This document shows, one piece after another, positions 5,629 to 16,401 of a DNA stretch of 26,006 nt; the first letter of the stretch is position 1; every line of letters starts with the position of its first letter. Source of the DNA: a virus. The position numbers and the translations under genes are program-made. The notes under the pieces are model-generated. The model saw only the letters and a program-made list of their open reading frames with translations, was not told the origin of the DNA and did not search any database. Location: positions 1-26,006 of IMG/VR virus record IMGVR_UViG_3300023219_000157. One strand, 5' to 3'.

Positions 5629-5643
5629 TTATTAATCATTGCC
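5621..5643. terminator. Hairpin over the convergent operon junction
   Basis: GGCCGTGATT (5621-5630) and AATCATTGCC (5634-5643) pair across a 3-nt loop, with one C-T mismatch and one G-U. It covers both opposing stop codons. Neither side is followed by a T-tract, so intrinsic termination is not assured; it may act in both directions or protect 3' ends. Confidence 0.4.
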
Positions 5644-6270
5644 AGTCATGTCCACTAAATCGTCAATTACTTTGTCCTGACCTTGCTTATAGTGGTTCAA
5701 TTTGACTTGATATTCATCGACTTGGTTGAGCCAATTCAGAAGAGTTAGGGCCCCGTCCTTTGTGAATCCCATAATTGCATAATCGCAATAGTCTCGTTTT
5801 CCTTCTTCACAGAAGATTCTCCAGTCATCGGTTGTTTTTTGAGTGACGGTAACCGTAATGGCGATATCGGGGGAATAGGACTGGCGGGCCTGAATATCAC
5901 AGGTTTCACGCGCACCGGAATGACTACCGGACTGGATGAGGCACATGACGTGAGCAATACGGCGCTCAAAATCGTTGCCGGTATCAAAAGGCTTCTCACG
6001 AAGTTCTTTTTCATAAATCGAGCGGAGAGCATTTATTTCCCTTTCCTTTTCGCTTGTCAAACGCGTGATAGCATTATCTTTCGTAAACATTTCATTTGCG
6101 TGTGTCTGTGACATACTGGCGGTCTTTTCCTGATATTCTCGGGCCAGCTTTTCGGCTTTTGCCGCCACCTCGAAAGCAACACGTAGTTCCACTTGATGTG
6201 TATAGGCATTAAACAGAAAATAGATAGCAATTCCCATCAAGGCCATAGCAACACCAGCAATCTTAATCAT
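5632..6270 (-). CDS. Rz-like i-spanin
   Basis: 212 residues. An N-terminal membrane anchor (MIKIAGVAMALMGIAIYFLF) is followed by a periplasmic helical region about 25-95 rich in Glu/Lys/Ala (coiled coil), the usual layout of inner-membrane spanins, which fuse inner and outer membranes at the end of lysis. A shifted-frame ORF inside it encodes a proline-rich lipoprotein, the diagnostic Rz/Rz1 nesting. It is longer than lambda Rz (153), with a C-terminal extension (about 140-212). GGGAA lies 5 nt before the ATG and the start is 1 nt from the upstream gene. Confidence 0.85.
   Translation of the reverse strand: MIKIAGVAMALMGIAIYFLFNAYTHQVELRVAFEVAAKAEKLAREYQEKTASMSQTHANEMFTKDNAITRLTSEKEREINALRSIYEKELREKPFDTGNDFERRIAHVMCLIQSGSHSGARETCDIQARQSYSPDIAITVTVTQKTTDDWRIFCEEGKRDYCDYAIMGFTKDGALTLLNWLNQVDEYQVKLNHYKQGQDKVIDDLVDMTGND
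5745..6032 (-). CDS. Rz1-like o-spanin lipoprotein, nested in Rz
   Basis: 95 residues entirely inside the i-spanin gene in another frame. A signal peptide runs from the basic MKKNFVRS through ILSAVLLTS to the lipobox LTSC (lipidated Cys at residue 30 from the upstream start). The following 35 residues hold about nine prolines (PVVIPVRVKPVIFRPASP...), as in Rz1, and the chain ends hydrophilic. The start at 6032 has AAGGG 6 nt upstream; a second in-frame ATG at 6012-6014 (MKKNF) would give a more standard signal peptide. It should localise to the outer membrane and pair with the i-spanin. Confidence 0.88.
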   Translation of the reverse strand: MLSARFMKKNFVRSLLIPATILSAVLLTSCASSSPVVIPVRVKPVIFRPASPIPPISPLRLPSLKKQPMTGESSVKKENETIAIMQLWDSQRTGP

Positions 6271-11751: not shown

Positions 11752-12243
11752 CTAAATTATTGCATTATCAAATGTGATCATATCATTGTCAAAGGTTATG
11801 TTTGAATTGTCGAATGTAAAAACATCGTTTATTGCTTGCCATCCACCCTGTAGGGTCATGGTGATATCAGCAGTTACCGCCTCTTCCACTGCCCCGGTCT
11901 GGGTTAGGCTTGTCACAAATGCAATGGCTTGTTCTTTATCCGCACCCTTAAATTGTCGCCTTACATAGATTGGCTGTCGCGTTCTAATCCGGTTTTGTAT
12001 TTCTGCAAAAGCTGCATCCGATGGTACAAGAAAATCTGTCAGATTTAAAACAGTCTTTTTCTGTCCAGATATTGGCTGAAAATCCCCCGCATCTCCTTTG
12101 CTCGAAACATCAATTTCCACGCCGGTTTCTTCCCAAGAAACATTTGTTTGACCGCCAAGGGCAGTAAAAACATTTGGCTGTCCATTTCCAGTCCTGATCG
12201 TTACGACAATTGTGGTGCCATTATCAACGGTTGATACTGCCAT
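11752..12243 (-). CDS. Second major-tail-protein-like paralogue with heptad tail
   Basis: 163 residues. The first 130 align by eye with the main tail tube protein at 15985-16401: MA-STV-NGT, VFT, EET-x2-EIDVSSK, AG-FQ-I-GQ-KT in register, so they are paralogues of the TP901-1-type major tail family. A C-terminal extension of 25 residues carries three heptads of the form xTFDNxx (FTFDNSN, ITFDNDM, ITFDNAI). Ribosome site GAGGTGA, start TAATG. Its place after the distal-tail gene suggests a specialised tail-tip ring or tail decoration rather than the main tube. Confidence 0.75.
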   Translation of the reverse strand: MAVSTVDNGTTIVVTIRTGNGQPNVFTALGGQTNVSWEETGVEIDVSSKGDAGDFQPISGQKKTVLNLTDFLVPSDAAFAEIQNRIRTRQPIYVRRQFKGADKEQAIAFVTSLTQTGAVEEAVTADITMTLQGGWQAINDVFTFDNSNITFDNDMITFDNAII

Positions 12244-12935
12244 TAGATCACCTCTTCAAATCCTATAGTTATGGGCAAAAAAACCACCTCTTCTGTTTGA
12301 AAAGGTATTGTGCTGCTTATTCGCCGTGCAATTATTTGAGCCTTTTTGGTTTTAATCACAGCATTGTTTGGGGGACTGGTCCGAATAGTTGGTTCAAATT
12401 GTAACTTAACTTTCCCAAACGCATCGGTTACCGCGTCTTCTGTCAACATATGAGCTTGGGCTTGCTGCTGAAACATGTCCCCTATCTTCATTATGGTGCT
12501 GTTCAAGGGCCAATCACGGGTGTTAAGGCTGTTTCCTGACTGCCCGGCACCGTCCACCGCTCCGAGGCCCGGAAATTCGCCGGCGTCAAATGTGATTATA
12601 TCAGAATCAAATGTGACTGTCGTATCGTCAAAGGTTGGGCCGGGATTTACAATAAATGTTTGGGCAAATTCTCTATCCGGATCGTTAACCAAAAATGTCC
12701 CCTGGCGACCTTTGAGTGAATTAATCCACGCTGTGAGGTCAAGCCAATCTGATTTTTTCAAATTGTTGGTTGAAAGCTCACCGGTGAAACGGTCAGTTGT
12801 TCCGGCACCGTGGGATTGAATGTTGACAATCCTAGAAATATCACTTTCGAAAACTGTGTCATTCACATCAAGGGTGAAAGAAACTTTCGCTGTTTTCAAG
12901 CCGGTCGGTAATTCGCGGGGGAAAGTTATTGTCAA
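12243..12935 (-). CDS. Distal-tail-like minor tail protein
   Basis: 230 residues directly after the tape measure, the usual place of the distal tail protein. The N-terminal half (about 1-100) is a beta-rich domain with KGRQGTFLVNDPDREF; the second half begins GAVDGAGQSGNSLNTRDWPLN (split here), and ends with a strand-rich part (PFQTEEVVFLP). Between them lies TFDDTTVTFDSDIITFD, the same 7-residue repeat seen at the end of the following gene. Start is TTG overlapping the previous stop as TTGA, with GGGAGG upstream. Family assignment by position and domain layout. Confidence 0.65.
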   Translation of the reverse strand: MTITFPRELPTGLKTAKVSFTLDVNDTVFESDISRIVNIQSHGAGTTDRFTGELSTNNLKKSDWLDLTAWINSLKGRQGTFLVNDPDREFAQTFIVNPGPTFDDTTVTFDSDIITFDAGEFPGLGAVDGAGQSGNSLNTRDWPLNSTIMKIGDMFQQQAQAHMLTEDAVTDAFGKVKLQFEPTIRTSPPNNAVIKTKKAQIIARRISSTIPFQTEEVVFLPITIGFEEVI

Positions 12936-15343
12936 ACCCGCCTCCCGTTCAATGCAGCAATGGTTGCTTGCTTGGATGCATTAATAAGAAGCGGGGCCGC
13001 ATTGGCGATTTCTTCTCGAACCGTGGCTCTAACGTCTGGGGTGAAATTATTTATCTGTGTGATCACCACATTGTCATTACTGACACCTTCAGCACTAATC
13101 CCAAGACCACCGCCGGCCACCCGGGTCAAGGGGAATATTGCCTCGTTACCAGCCTCACCAGCCAGCCCCACGCCACCATTAGTCATGGGGAAAGTCGTCC
13201 GTCCGGAAATGAGCCCACCATCAACAAACGGCACCGGTGCGCCTCCACTGAAAACATTACCTTTAGCAGATCCAAACAGACTGCCAAGAAACCCACCGCC
13301 GCCCGGGGCCCCGATGATGCTGGAAATAATTGAACTGATTATCGCATTCGCAACATTGCGCAAGGCATCAAGAGCAGATGTTGCCCCGGTAACCACACCT
13401 GTTATTGAGCTTGAAATCGTCCCGCTCACATCTGTTAAAACTTTTTCAATTGAATCGGCGGTCGATTTGGTTTTACTTTCCAGATTGCCAATTCCGTCTT
13501 GCAACTTCTTCAAAGTTTCATCGAAATTTGAGCTGATTGATTTATTCAGTTCGGCAATTGAATCTTTAAACTTTCCGGCAAGTTCGGGGAATTTATTGGC
13601 CAGGGCATCAAAGCCCGGAATATCAATGGCACCGGCGAGAATATTTTTTATTGCTTCAAAACTGGTCTTTATGCCGGCCCGGATCCCGTCAATGTCAGCG
13701 ACAAATTGATCTTTAGTTGCCCTGAATTCAAGCGCACTGGCAACATTTTCCCTAACTTCTTGAAGGCTTTCATCGGTTGGCGCCTGTATCCGGAATGAAA
13801 TCTCCTCTCTGCCGAAAAACCGCTGTAAACTATTGAACTGTTCAATAATACCATTGATAGTGTTGGCCACAATTCTGGTCAATGGTTCAAAAGCAATTTC
13901 AAAAGTCCCTGAAATTATCGTCCCTATACTCTTGAACACCTCAACAATCGTATCCCGGAAAAGAAATATTGAAGCCGCCGCAATGGCAATTAATCCAGGG
14001 ATCGAGAATATGGCCCCGAGAATTAATCCTATTGACTTCAACGCCACACTACTCAAAATAATAAATCCTGTGGCCACAACCTTTAAGGCCCCGATCACAT
14101 TGATAATTGCGCCAACCATCAAACCAAAGATAATCAATGCCGGGCCAAGGGCTGCCCCCAAGGCCAGGCCAGTTAAGATTGTTTCCTGCATTGCCGGGGC
14201 CAATTCAGCAAAGGCATTCCCGGCCGTAATAATTGCCGCCGTGATTTTCGTGATGACTGGGGCCAATATGGGCAATATAACCTGACCCAATTGTGTTGCA
14301 GCTGTTTGTATCCCGACCATAGCCTGAATAAATTTAAAAGCCCCTGTATCAGCAACCGCCCGGAAAGCAATGTCTAGGTCATCCTCAGTCGTTTCAGAAA
14401 GGCTTTTAAAGATTGCCCGAGTTTGTTCCGCACTGCCGCCCACCAATCCCAAGACACCGGTTAAAGCCCGAACGTTAGGAATGATTTCGGCAAGAGCCGC
14501 GCTATCATCACCAATTTCATCTCTAAGGGTTGTCAGAACAGCAAGCAAACCTTCTTCCCGGAGTTGTCGCCGTAAATCTTCAAAAGATAGCCCCAATTTT
14601 GCCAGAGCTGTTTCCGCTTGGCTACCCGGAGTCAACAATGCCGTAAAGATAGAGCGCAATTGTGTAACTGCCTCGGCCGCACTGACGCCGGTCCTGGTCA
14701 TGGCAGCAATGGCTGCCCCTAACTGATCAAAGCTTATTCCAAGTTCCGCGGCAATCCCGGTGACTTGGCCCAATGATCCGGCGATTTCATCCGCGGCGGC
14801 TTTACCTTCCCTGACCGTCTTGACCAAAATGGCCACGGCTTGGGTTGCAGATAAATTTGATCCGGCGAAGGCATTGGTTGCACTGGTGGCGGCATCGGCC
14901 ACGATGGCTGTTGATCCCAGGCCAGCGGTGGCAGCCTTGGCACTGGCTGTCAAAGTCTCTAAAGCATCGGCGCCACGTTTGCCGGCTGATGTGATAAAGA
15001 ATAATGCTTCGGCCAGTTCTGCCGGTCCACGGCCCACTTGTGGTGCAAGTTGTAAAATTTCATCACCAAACTTTGCAACTTCATCACTGGCCACACCAAC
15101 CAGACCGACAATCTTGGCTAAATTTAACTCAAACGTTCCGGCGACTTTCCCGGATGCAATCCCGGCAGCCAATAAGGGGGCCGTTAATGCAATGGAGAGT
15201 GCTTTCCCCGCCCGGTCGGCACCTCTCTGGATATTGCGAAGACTGCCGGTGATTGACTTTTGAGCACGGGACAAACCCCGCGTTAATGTTGCGGTGTCAA
15301 TTGTGAGTTCAACAAATCCCTCTGCAACTTTGCTATCAACCAT
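12932..15343 (-). CDS. Tail tape measure protein
   Basis: 803 residues. The N-terminal 340 residues match the TP901-type tape-measure core: ELNLAKIVGLVGVASDEV, then AELAEALFFITSAGKRG, and AAMTRTGVSAAEAVTQLRS are family signatures. A hydrophobic central region (about 385-460, e.g. ALIIFGLMVGAIINVIGAL) is followed by coiled coils (about 560-640) and a Gly-rich C-terminus. It sets tail length and may be ejected into the host envelope. At about 800 residues the tail would be of medium length (roughly 100-130 nm by the usual 0.15 nm per residue rule). It overlaps the chaperone ORF by 8 nt. Confidence 0.95.
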   Translation of the reverse strand: MVDSKVAEGFVELTIDTATLTRGLSRAQKSITGSLRNIQRGADRAGKALSIALTAPLLAAGIASGKVAGTFELNLAKIVGLVGVASDEVAKFGDEILQLAPQVGRGPAELAEALFFITSAGKRGADALETLTASAKAATAGLGSTAIVADAATSATNAFAGSNLSATQAVAILVKTVREGKAAADEIAGSLGQVTGIAAELGISFDQLGAAIAAMTRTGVSAAEAVTQLRSIFTALLTPGSQAETALAKLGLSFEDLRRQLREEGLLAVLTTLRDEIGDDSAALAEIIPNVRALTGVLGLVGGSAEQTRAIFKSLSETTEDDLDIAFRAVADTGAFKFIQAMVGIQTAATQLGQVILPILAPVITKITAAIITAGNAFAELAPAMQETILTGLALGAALGPALIIFGLMVGAIINVIGALKVVATGFIILSSVALKSIGLILGAIFSIPGLIAIAAASIFLFRDTIVEVFKSIGTIISGTFEIAFEPLTRIVANTINGIIEQFNSLQRFFGREEISFRIQAPTDESLQEVRENVASALEFRATKDQFVADIDGIRAGIKTSFEAIKNILAGAIDIPGFDALANKFPELAGKFKDSIAELNKSISSNFDETLKKLQDGIGNLESKTKSTADSIEKVLTDVSGTISSSITGVVTGATSALDALRNVANAIISSIISSIIGAPGGGGFLGSLFGSAKGNVFSGGAPVPFVDGGLISGRTTFPMTNGGVGLAGEAGNEAIFPLTRVAGGGLGISAEGVSNDNVVITQINNFTPDVRATVREEIANAAPLLINASKQATIAALNGRRV

Positions 15344-15662
15344 TTTCCGTCATCTTTTTTATTGCTTTCAGCTGTTCTCTTGCATGATCAGACGCACTTT
15401 TCGCCAATTTTTTCGGTTTTACTATGCCTAAGATTTCATGTTTTAAATCAGGCAATTTTTTTACCCTCTGATAATAAGCCGCCATCCATGCACCGGTTGT
15501 CATCTGCACCCGTTCATTTTGTCGCCGATGGTCAGCAGCAAGAAACAATTCACGCGGGGTTAATGCCCAGTATATATCGGGCGTCAAACCAAGTTCGCCT
15601 ATAGCAATGGCAAAACCTTTTTCGTAGGGGAAGAATCGGCCGGCCTCTTCCTCTACTTCGTG
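15336..15662 (-). CDS. Downstream tail assembly chaperone ORF, -1 frame of the first
   Basis: This frame has no ATG or GTG start; the first start-like codon is a TTG at 15585-15587 without a ribosome site. Upstream of it the frame is open and encodes EEEAGRFFPYEKGFAIAIGE followed by LGLTPDIYWALTPRELFLA, which is the conserved part of the tail-chaperone domain (WALTPRE is typical of GTA-type chaperones). So the coding region extends upstream to the stop in this frame at 15675-15677 and is most simply reached by -1 frameshifting from the first chaperone gene. A fusion at the CCCC run (15662-15665) would add 108 residues to the first 108, giving about 216. Confidence 0.75.
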   Translation of the reverse strand, partial: HEVEEEAGRFFPYEKGFAIAIGELGLTPDIYWALTPRELFLAADHRRQNERVQMTTGAWMAAYYQRVKKLPDLKHEILGIVKPKKLAKSASDHAREQLKAIKKMTENG

Positions 15663-15985
15663 GGGTCCACTGCATTATCATCCTGACCTTTTGGGGCGTC
15701 TGGTGAACTTGCAACGAATGCTTTGCCAACTGCTTCTGCAAATTGTTGCATACCTGACAGGTCACCCATAAGTTTGCCCATCTCCTTCATGGTCAATTCT
15801 GGTTTGTCCCAAATCAATCCAGCCCACACCATGGCTCGAATAGCTCCGATAGAACCAGTCTGGACAGCTGCCATAAGTTGGTTTATGTCCTTGTATTGTG
15901 TTGCTTCTTCAAGCTCACAAAGACTGTTCACCGTGTATTTAAAGGCATAAATCTTGCCATTAATTTTAACTTTTGTCGGCTTCAT
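15653..15985 (-). CDS. Tail assembly chaperone, upstream ORF
   Basis: 110 residues from the ATG that shares the A of the major-tail stop (TAATG). Begins MKPTKVKINGKIYAFKYTVN; the LCELEEATQYKDINQL and AIRAMVWAGLIW segments resemble GTA/HK97-like chaperone G proteins that load on the tape measure. The end DDNAVDPTK is reached by TAG 15653-15655. A -1 shift near the end would join it to the following ORF, as in lambda G/GT. Position between tail tube and tape measure is exactly that of such genes. Confidence 0.85.
   Translation of the reverse strand: MKPTKVKINGKIYAFKYTVNSLCELEEATQYKDINQLMAAVQTGSIGAIRAMVWAGLIWDKPELTMKEMGKLMGDLSGMQQFAEAVGKAFVASSPDAPKGQDDNAVDPTK
15662..15668 (-). other. Probable -1 ribosomal frameshift site
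   Basis: GGACCCC lies just before the end of the upstream chaperone ORF. Slipping one base back on the four Cs keeps codon CCC paired and joins the open -1 frame (stops at 15675-15680 on one side, 15336-15338 on the other). Only the stretch 15656-15674 can host the shift. Confidence 0.6.
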
Positions 15986-16401
15986 TATACAACCGCTCCT
16001 GGCTGACCGCATAGAGTACCAGACATTGAATAAGTGGCAGCATCTTCATTGCCGCCCGTCCGGGTGAAAGCGGTGATAATATAATCAAATTGATCAACTT
16101 CAACATCATTTTGGAAACGCCGTGCCCGTCCTGTTCCAGCTCCTCGAATTGCTGTTTCAATTACGGTAATACTTGCATCAGCATCAATGACCAATCCATC
16201 AACTGTAAATGTTGTCTTATATTGACCTGGAATACCTTGAAAGTTTCCTGCTGAACTTTTGCTGGATACATCAATTTCAGCACGAGTTTCTTCAAAACTG
16301 AAATTGGTTTCTTCAGTGAAGAGTGTGAAAACATCAGGACCAGTAGAAGTTCGATTCTTTATCGTAAATTTTGTTCCATTTATAACTGTACTTGTTGCCA
16401 T
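15985..16401 (-). CDS. Major tail (tube) protein
   Basis: 138 residues in the classical place between tail terminator and tail chaperones. Begins MATSTVINGTKFTIKNRT; the segment SFEETRAEIDVSSKSSAG and the strand-rich rest match the TP901-1-type major tail family, which stack as hexamers to form the tube. Strong AGGAG upstream suggests high expression. A divergent paralogue lies 4 kb downstream in the operon. Confidence 0.88.
   Translation of the reverse strand: MATSTVINGTKFTIKNRTSTGPDVFTLFTEETNFSFEETRAEIDVSSKSSAGNFQGIPGQYKTTFTVDGLVIDADASITVIETAIRGAGTGRARRFQNDVEVDQFDYIITAFTRTGGNEDAATYSMSGTLCGQPGAVV

Follow-up and report, generated by a model that had tools for sequence, protein, structure and literature searches.

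How is the second half of a phage tail assembly chaperone translated when its reading frame contains no ATG or GTG? This question is raised by the window analysed here, a 26,006-base phage record from IMG/VR in which the late genes run along the minus strand in the order terminase, portal, protease, capsid, connectors, tail completion, tail tube, chaperone pair and tape measure. Directly 5' of the chaperone pair is the gene for the tail tube (major tail) protein (15985..16401, minus strand), whose product matches Pfam Phage_tail_2 below the cut-off (E 0.0028) and is 41% identical to the product of 11752-12243, itself a match to PHROG 1407, major tail protein. Directly 3' is the tape measure protein gene (12932..15343, minus strand; Pfam PhageMin_Tail, E 2.6e-23). 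The pair is thus flanked by the tail tube gene and the tape measure gene, as expected of a two-length chaperone. The gene at 11752-12243 (minus strand) is a second tail tube gene lying past the tape measure gene, and may encode a distal tail protein or a tube paralogue. Elsewhere in the window, two nested ORFs in different frames (5632-6270 and 5745-6032, minus strand) resemble an Rz/Rz1 spanin pair; the inner ORF bears LLTSCASSS, which looks like a lipoprotein signal.

The upstream, short chaperone ORF (15653..15985, minus strand; 110 codons, taken as the zero frame) extends from an ATG at 15985 to a TAG at 15655-15653. It matches PHROG 2115 'tail protein' (E 2.6e-19) and Pfam Phage_TAC_11 (PF11836; E 6.6e-5); because the latter score, 23.3 bits, falls under the curated cut-off of 27.8, we refer to it only as Phage_TAC_11-like. 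The downstream coding region (15336..15674, minus strand) occupies the -1 frame, which follows a TAA stop at 15677-15675 and is open from 15674 to a TGA at 15338-15336. It scores above the curated cut-off for Pfam Phage_TAC_6 (PF09550; E 1.4e-7, 32.3 bits against 23.4); the domain starts at about 15614, and the first residue matched is number 21 of this ORF. The two ORFs overlap by 22 nt, and the zero-frame codons at the junction are AAT GCA GTG GAC CCC ACG AAG TAG. Scanning the whole -1 ORF of the window revealed no ATG or GTG, and neither codon overlaps the upstream stop there as the start codons of GTA-type pairs do. The sole standard start-like codon in this frame is a TTG (15585..15587, minus strand), which is residue 30 and lies nine residues inside the Phage_TAC_6 match. 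These results agree with a preliminary description of the locus, which had given the same coordinates and frame relation, noted the missing ATG and GTG, reported a -1 frame open well 5' of the only TTG and confined any shift to the interval between the -1 stop and the zero-frame TAG, both of which we verified. Its designation of EEEAGRFFPYEKG as conserved chaperone residues held in part: the stretch does lie within the domain, but it is conserved only in the window and its two close relatives. In distant relatives the aligned stretch reads xRPWDW or similar, and it is not family-wide.

Programmed -1 frameshifting at a noncanonical heptamer very probably generates a two-length chaperone of the lambda gpG/gpGT type from this sequence. 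Within the 22-nt overlap, G GAC CCC is the only in-frame position that allows the A-site tRNA to re-pair; other slip positions were rejected because A-site re-pairing is impossible there, and GGACCCC is thus left as the only candidate slip stretch, as had been proposed. The putative slip heptamer G_GAC_CCC (15662..15668, minus strand) would be read GGA CCC CAC in the -1 frame and would join the protein as ...VDP-HEVEEE.... It conforms to G_GAY_YYY in the zero frame and is not a standard X_XXY_YYZ heptamer, a point also made earlier: P-site re-pairing is imperfect, and G_GAC_CCC stands in the window where a canonical heptamer would be sought.

Under this mechanism, most ribosomes would translate 15985-15653 and stop at the TAG, yielding the short chaperone. 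We infer that a minority, holding Asp-tRNA on GAC in the P site and Pro-tRNA on CCC in the A site, would be stalled by a hairpin 5 nt further on and slip one base back. Pro-tRNA would re-pair perfectly, CCC to CCC, and Asp-tRNA would re-pair partly, GAC to GGA, through a G-C and a G-U pair followed by a mismatch. The shifted ribosomes would then continue in the -1 frame to 15336, producing a fusion protein of 216 aa in which the Phage_TAC_6 domain follows the short chaperone. By analogy with lambda gpG/gpGT, coating of the tape measure protein would fall to the short form, and recruitment of the tail tube protein to the long form.

Close relatives of the window provided a record of selection across the junction. 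Searches for further members of the window clade recovered only two contigs (L001 and L007), which are 82-87% identical and share the arrangement without indels; the L001 protein is 82% identical and likewise aligns without an indel. Relative to L001, substitutions in the upstream part fall at the zero-frame third codon position in 44 of 66 cases (with 13 and 9 at the remaining positions), and those in the downstream part fall at the -1-frame third position in 32 of 52 (14 and 6 at the others). The third-base peak moves from position 2 to position 1 across the junction, which argues that both frames are translated, and the comparison indicates that purifying selection acts on the appropriate frame on either side. 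Synonymous changes amount to 4/17 in codons 106-123, 40/78 upstream and 24/72 downstream.

The stimulator that we propose is a hairpin, GUAG-A-GGAAGAG / 9-nt loop / UUCUUCC-C-CUAC (15624..15656, minus strand), with 11 bp, one internal A/C mismatch and a folding energy of -13 kcal/mol. A 5-nt spacer, ACGAA (15657..15661, minus strand), separates it from the heptamer, and the zero-frame UAG sits in its 5' arm. The same 11-bp hairpin can be folded in all three genomes of the window clade, and arm substitutions in L001 and L007 keep the pairing; because the clade comprises only three close genomes, this covariation consists of two one-sided changes. Compared with shuffled sequences, the 49-nt hairpin region is unremarkable (z -0.84), and a longer region that includes the heptamer reaches z -2.76. 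Hairpins this stable at such a distance occur at 1.6% of the positions sampled on the window's coding strand. A stronger structure lies 3' of GGACCCT in Sphingomonas sanguinis (L035), at -34 kcal/mol over 60 nt and a mononucleotide-shuffle z of -4.7. We also conjecture that a Shine-Dalgarno-like AGGA 12 nt 5' of the heptamer (15681..15684, minus strand), which reads AAGG in L001 and AGGA in L007, could be a weak stimulator.

Surveying the family with profiles built from both halves of the pair yielded 118 distinct loci carrying both parts. At 107 of these, counted before any filter on frame, the second part lies in the -1 frame. We retained 73 non-redundant, well-scoring phage-type pairs, for which the -1 frame was a selection criterion and from which GTA-type starts were removed. 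No ATG or GTG occurs between the two domains in 71 of the 73. The junctions of 51 contain a strict X_XXY_YYZ heptamer, most often GGGAAAC/G, AAACCCT or GGGCCCT. Of 37 cluster representatives, 27 contain a strict heptamer, where codon shuffling gives 10 on average (P<0.001). The -1 frame, the missing starts and the heptamer enrichment together indicate that -1 frameshifting is the ordinary expression mode of phage-type pairs. Public records of phages Pben1, Psul1, Shpa, Rivra, Kronos, SI1 and PG1 (among loci L006, L123, L124, L125, L126, L127 and L128) present the pair as two ORFs with no slippage join, and in some the second start is set inside the conserved region, as in Pben1 p46. In Agrobacterium phage Rivra (L123, 1195-1865), the two are annotated as hypothetical proteins, the -1 overlap measures 31 nt and C_CGC_CCC, at which the P-site tRNA would re-pair poorly, is the one candidate for slippage.

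Relatives with a separate real start or with fused frames, which the preliminary description had named as counter-evidence, both exist. GTA-type pairs (L040, L081, L082, L083, L091 and L093) have an ATGA overlap that supplies a real start, and their junctions lack a strict heptamer; two expression modes for one domain pair therefore coexist in the family; these relatives form a different branch, however, and the window has no such start. One distant prophage (L065; genome G350, plus strand) has an ORF at 1372-2064 that carries both halves in a single frame, beside a separate short Phage_TAC_11-like gene at 2372-2821 just before the tape measure. This arrangement fits a two-length product, gene duplication having possibly replaced the frameshift.

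The slip site itself recurs across the family. GGACCCC is identical in L001 and L007, and other relatives have GGACCCT or GGGCCCT. An in-frame GGACCCC/T is found in 10 of the 22 pairs that lack a strict heptamer versus 1 of the 51 that have one (Fisher P ~1e-5, a test that ignores kinship). By codon shuffling alone, the excess of GGACCCY is weak (P 0.07 with 60% clusters, 0.02 with 40%), and we therefore base the case for it on the way it substitutes for strict heptamers and on its occurrence at homologous positions. On a tree of the 73 proteins, GGACCCY use requires at least seven gains or losses, and homologous positions read GGACCCT, GGGCCCT, AAACCCT, CAACCCT or CGGCCCT. One clade of phages and prophages, which includes the S. 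sanguinis locus, varies between GGACCCT and GGGCCCT at this point, and in nearly every case TCN comes next in the -1 frame. The preliminary description had doubted so nonstandard a heptamer and pointed to the C-run in related phages as a check; the doubt is answered by the recurrence of GGACCCC/T where a strict heptamer is absent and by its alternation with GGGCCCT at the homologous base.

Codon choice at these junctions is also skewed. Junctions of the CCCY type, selected as CCC or CCT, use CCT in 36 of 41 cases (88%), against 39 of 164 CCC plus CCT codons elsewhere in these genes (24%); we restricted the comparison to these two codons because the choice of junctions already conditions on them. 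Among all proline codons of these genes, CCT is used least (39 of 426). Two junctions (L010 and L014) contain neither a strict heptamer nor CCY, and their best candidate is G_GAA_AAG, another G_GA-type P-site context.

Production of a two-length chaperone by -1 frameshifting is textbook knowledge from lambda gpG/gpGT (Atkins et al. 2016, PMC5009743), and a conserved tail assembly chaperone frameshift in long-tailed phages is credited to Xu, Hendrix and Duda 2004 (cited in PMC3711429, PMC3556154). The window pair resembles lambda gpG/gpGT in lying just before the tape measure gene and in consisting of two overlapping ORFs related by a -1 shift, with a short and an extended product proposed here. 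It differs in its chaperone families, which are Phage_TAC_11-like and Phage_TAC_6, and in a slip site that is not X_XXY_YYZ. GTA-type pairs (Pfam Phage_TAC_11 'GTA-gp10' and Phage_TAC_6) combine the same two families in the same order, but have an ATGA overlap with its own start and mostly no strict heptamer at the overlap.

As for the site, use of G_GA as X_XX is accepted for dianthoviruses, umbraviruses and others (PMC5009743), and GGACCCC may best be read as a C analogue of the G_GAU_UUU of plant umbraviruses. Both combine G_GAY with an A-site YYY, such that only the A-site tRNA re-pairs fully (PMC4737148, PMC5009743), and both have a 5-nt spacer and a zero-frame UAG in or beside a hairpin, which is stimulatory there and proposed to be so here. 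The known sites, from umbraviruses and dianthoviruses, differ in belonging to eukaryotic RNA viruses, in having U rather than C and in serving replicase expression. In Pea enation mosaic virus, where a 5-nt spacer leads to a hairpin at the stop codon, frameshifting was 112% of wild type when GGGUUUU replaced G_GAU_UUU, and it fell to 36-40% when re-pairing in the P site was blocked (PMC4737148). The PRFect motif 'twoonefour' was noted, by inspection rather than experiment, in annotated phage frameshift joins without X_XXY_YYZ (PMC10885494); if the motif's name is taken to mean two, one and four of a kind, GGACCCC would seem to belong to it and GGACCCT would not. In the part of the literature covered, we found no paper in which GGACCCC or GGACCCT is described as a slip site. 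On this basis, and from the comparison with the G_GA parallels, we do not class the pair as a canonical member: production of a two-length chaperone through -1 frameshifting is already known, and the novelty lies in the GGACCCC variant of the slip site.

Could the two frames be connected, or separately expressed, in some other way? The record is a metagenomic contig in single copy, and a sequencing error or decayed gene might break a frame in this manner; this is barely credible, as the identical break recurs without an indel in two other contigs and both frames are under purifying selection. Sequencing error is rejected on the break shared by all three contigs. Transcriptional slippage, with bases added to or lost from the mRNA, would make use of the run of four Cs, but such a run is very short for polymerase slippage, which we reject at this site. 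The C-run case T5C5 requires a special hairpin context (PMC5009743), and most relatives have heptamers without a long run, making this route highly improbable. The downstream protein could instead have a start of its own, using TTG 15587 or some other non-ATG codon translationally coupled to the upstream stop, much as GTA-type relatives (for example, L040, L082 and L083) start at the ATGA that overlaps theirs. We rejected the TTG, present as it is in the -1 frame, as an independent start: it lies inside the domain, and its position is a CTA leucine codon in L001. With none of the three close genomes having an ATG, GTG or TTG ahead of the domain, and with the -1 frame 5' of the TTG conserved as protein, separate initiation is very unlikely. 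The shared break, the frame-specific substitutions and the unconserved TTG thus exclude sequencing error and strongly oppose an independent start.

A variant of the frameshifting mechanism concerns which tRNAs matter. The proline tRNA alone might slip at C-CCC, in which case the signal would be the tetramer C_CCY and the P-site codon would hardly matter. An in-frame NNN CCC/CCT is present in 19 of the 22 pairs without a strict heptamer, and some P-site contexts re-pair poorly, namely CCGCCCC (Agrobacterium phage Rivra), GCGCCCT and CAACCCT, which suggests that the P-site rule is possibly loose in this chaperone family. We nevertheless regard slippage by the proline tRNA alone as rather doubtful: P-site codons are non-random, with GGA, GGG and AAA contexts dominating the junctions; G always precedes GAC before CCC/CCT among the junctions listed; and frameshifting in Pea enation mosaic virus drops by ~60% when P-site re-pairing is prevented (PMC4737148). 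A wider proposal, which we advance tentatively as possible rather than favoured, is that a large phage group with GTA-type chaperones may use a proline-centred -1 signal, C_CCU/C_CCC, that does not need proper P-site re-pairing (GGACCCC, GGACCCT, CAACCCT, GCGCCCT and CCGCCCC).

Programmed -1 frameshifting at GGACCCC remains our preferred reading of the locus. Tail chaperone frameshifts are usually sought through X_XXY_YYZ, and a G_GAC_CCY site would let annotation tools detect a missed set of fusion proteins. If a proline-centred C_CCU/C_CCC signal is real, the two-tRNA rule that is accepted for -1 sites in bacteria would be relaxed in those phages. The recurring G_GAC_CCY, interconverting with G_GGC_CCU at one base, offers a natural mutation series on the importance of P-site re-pairing in bacteria.
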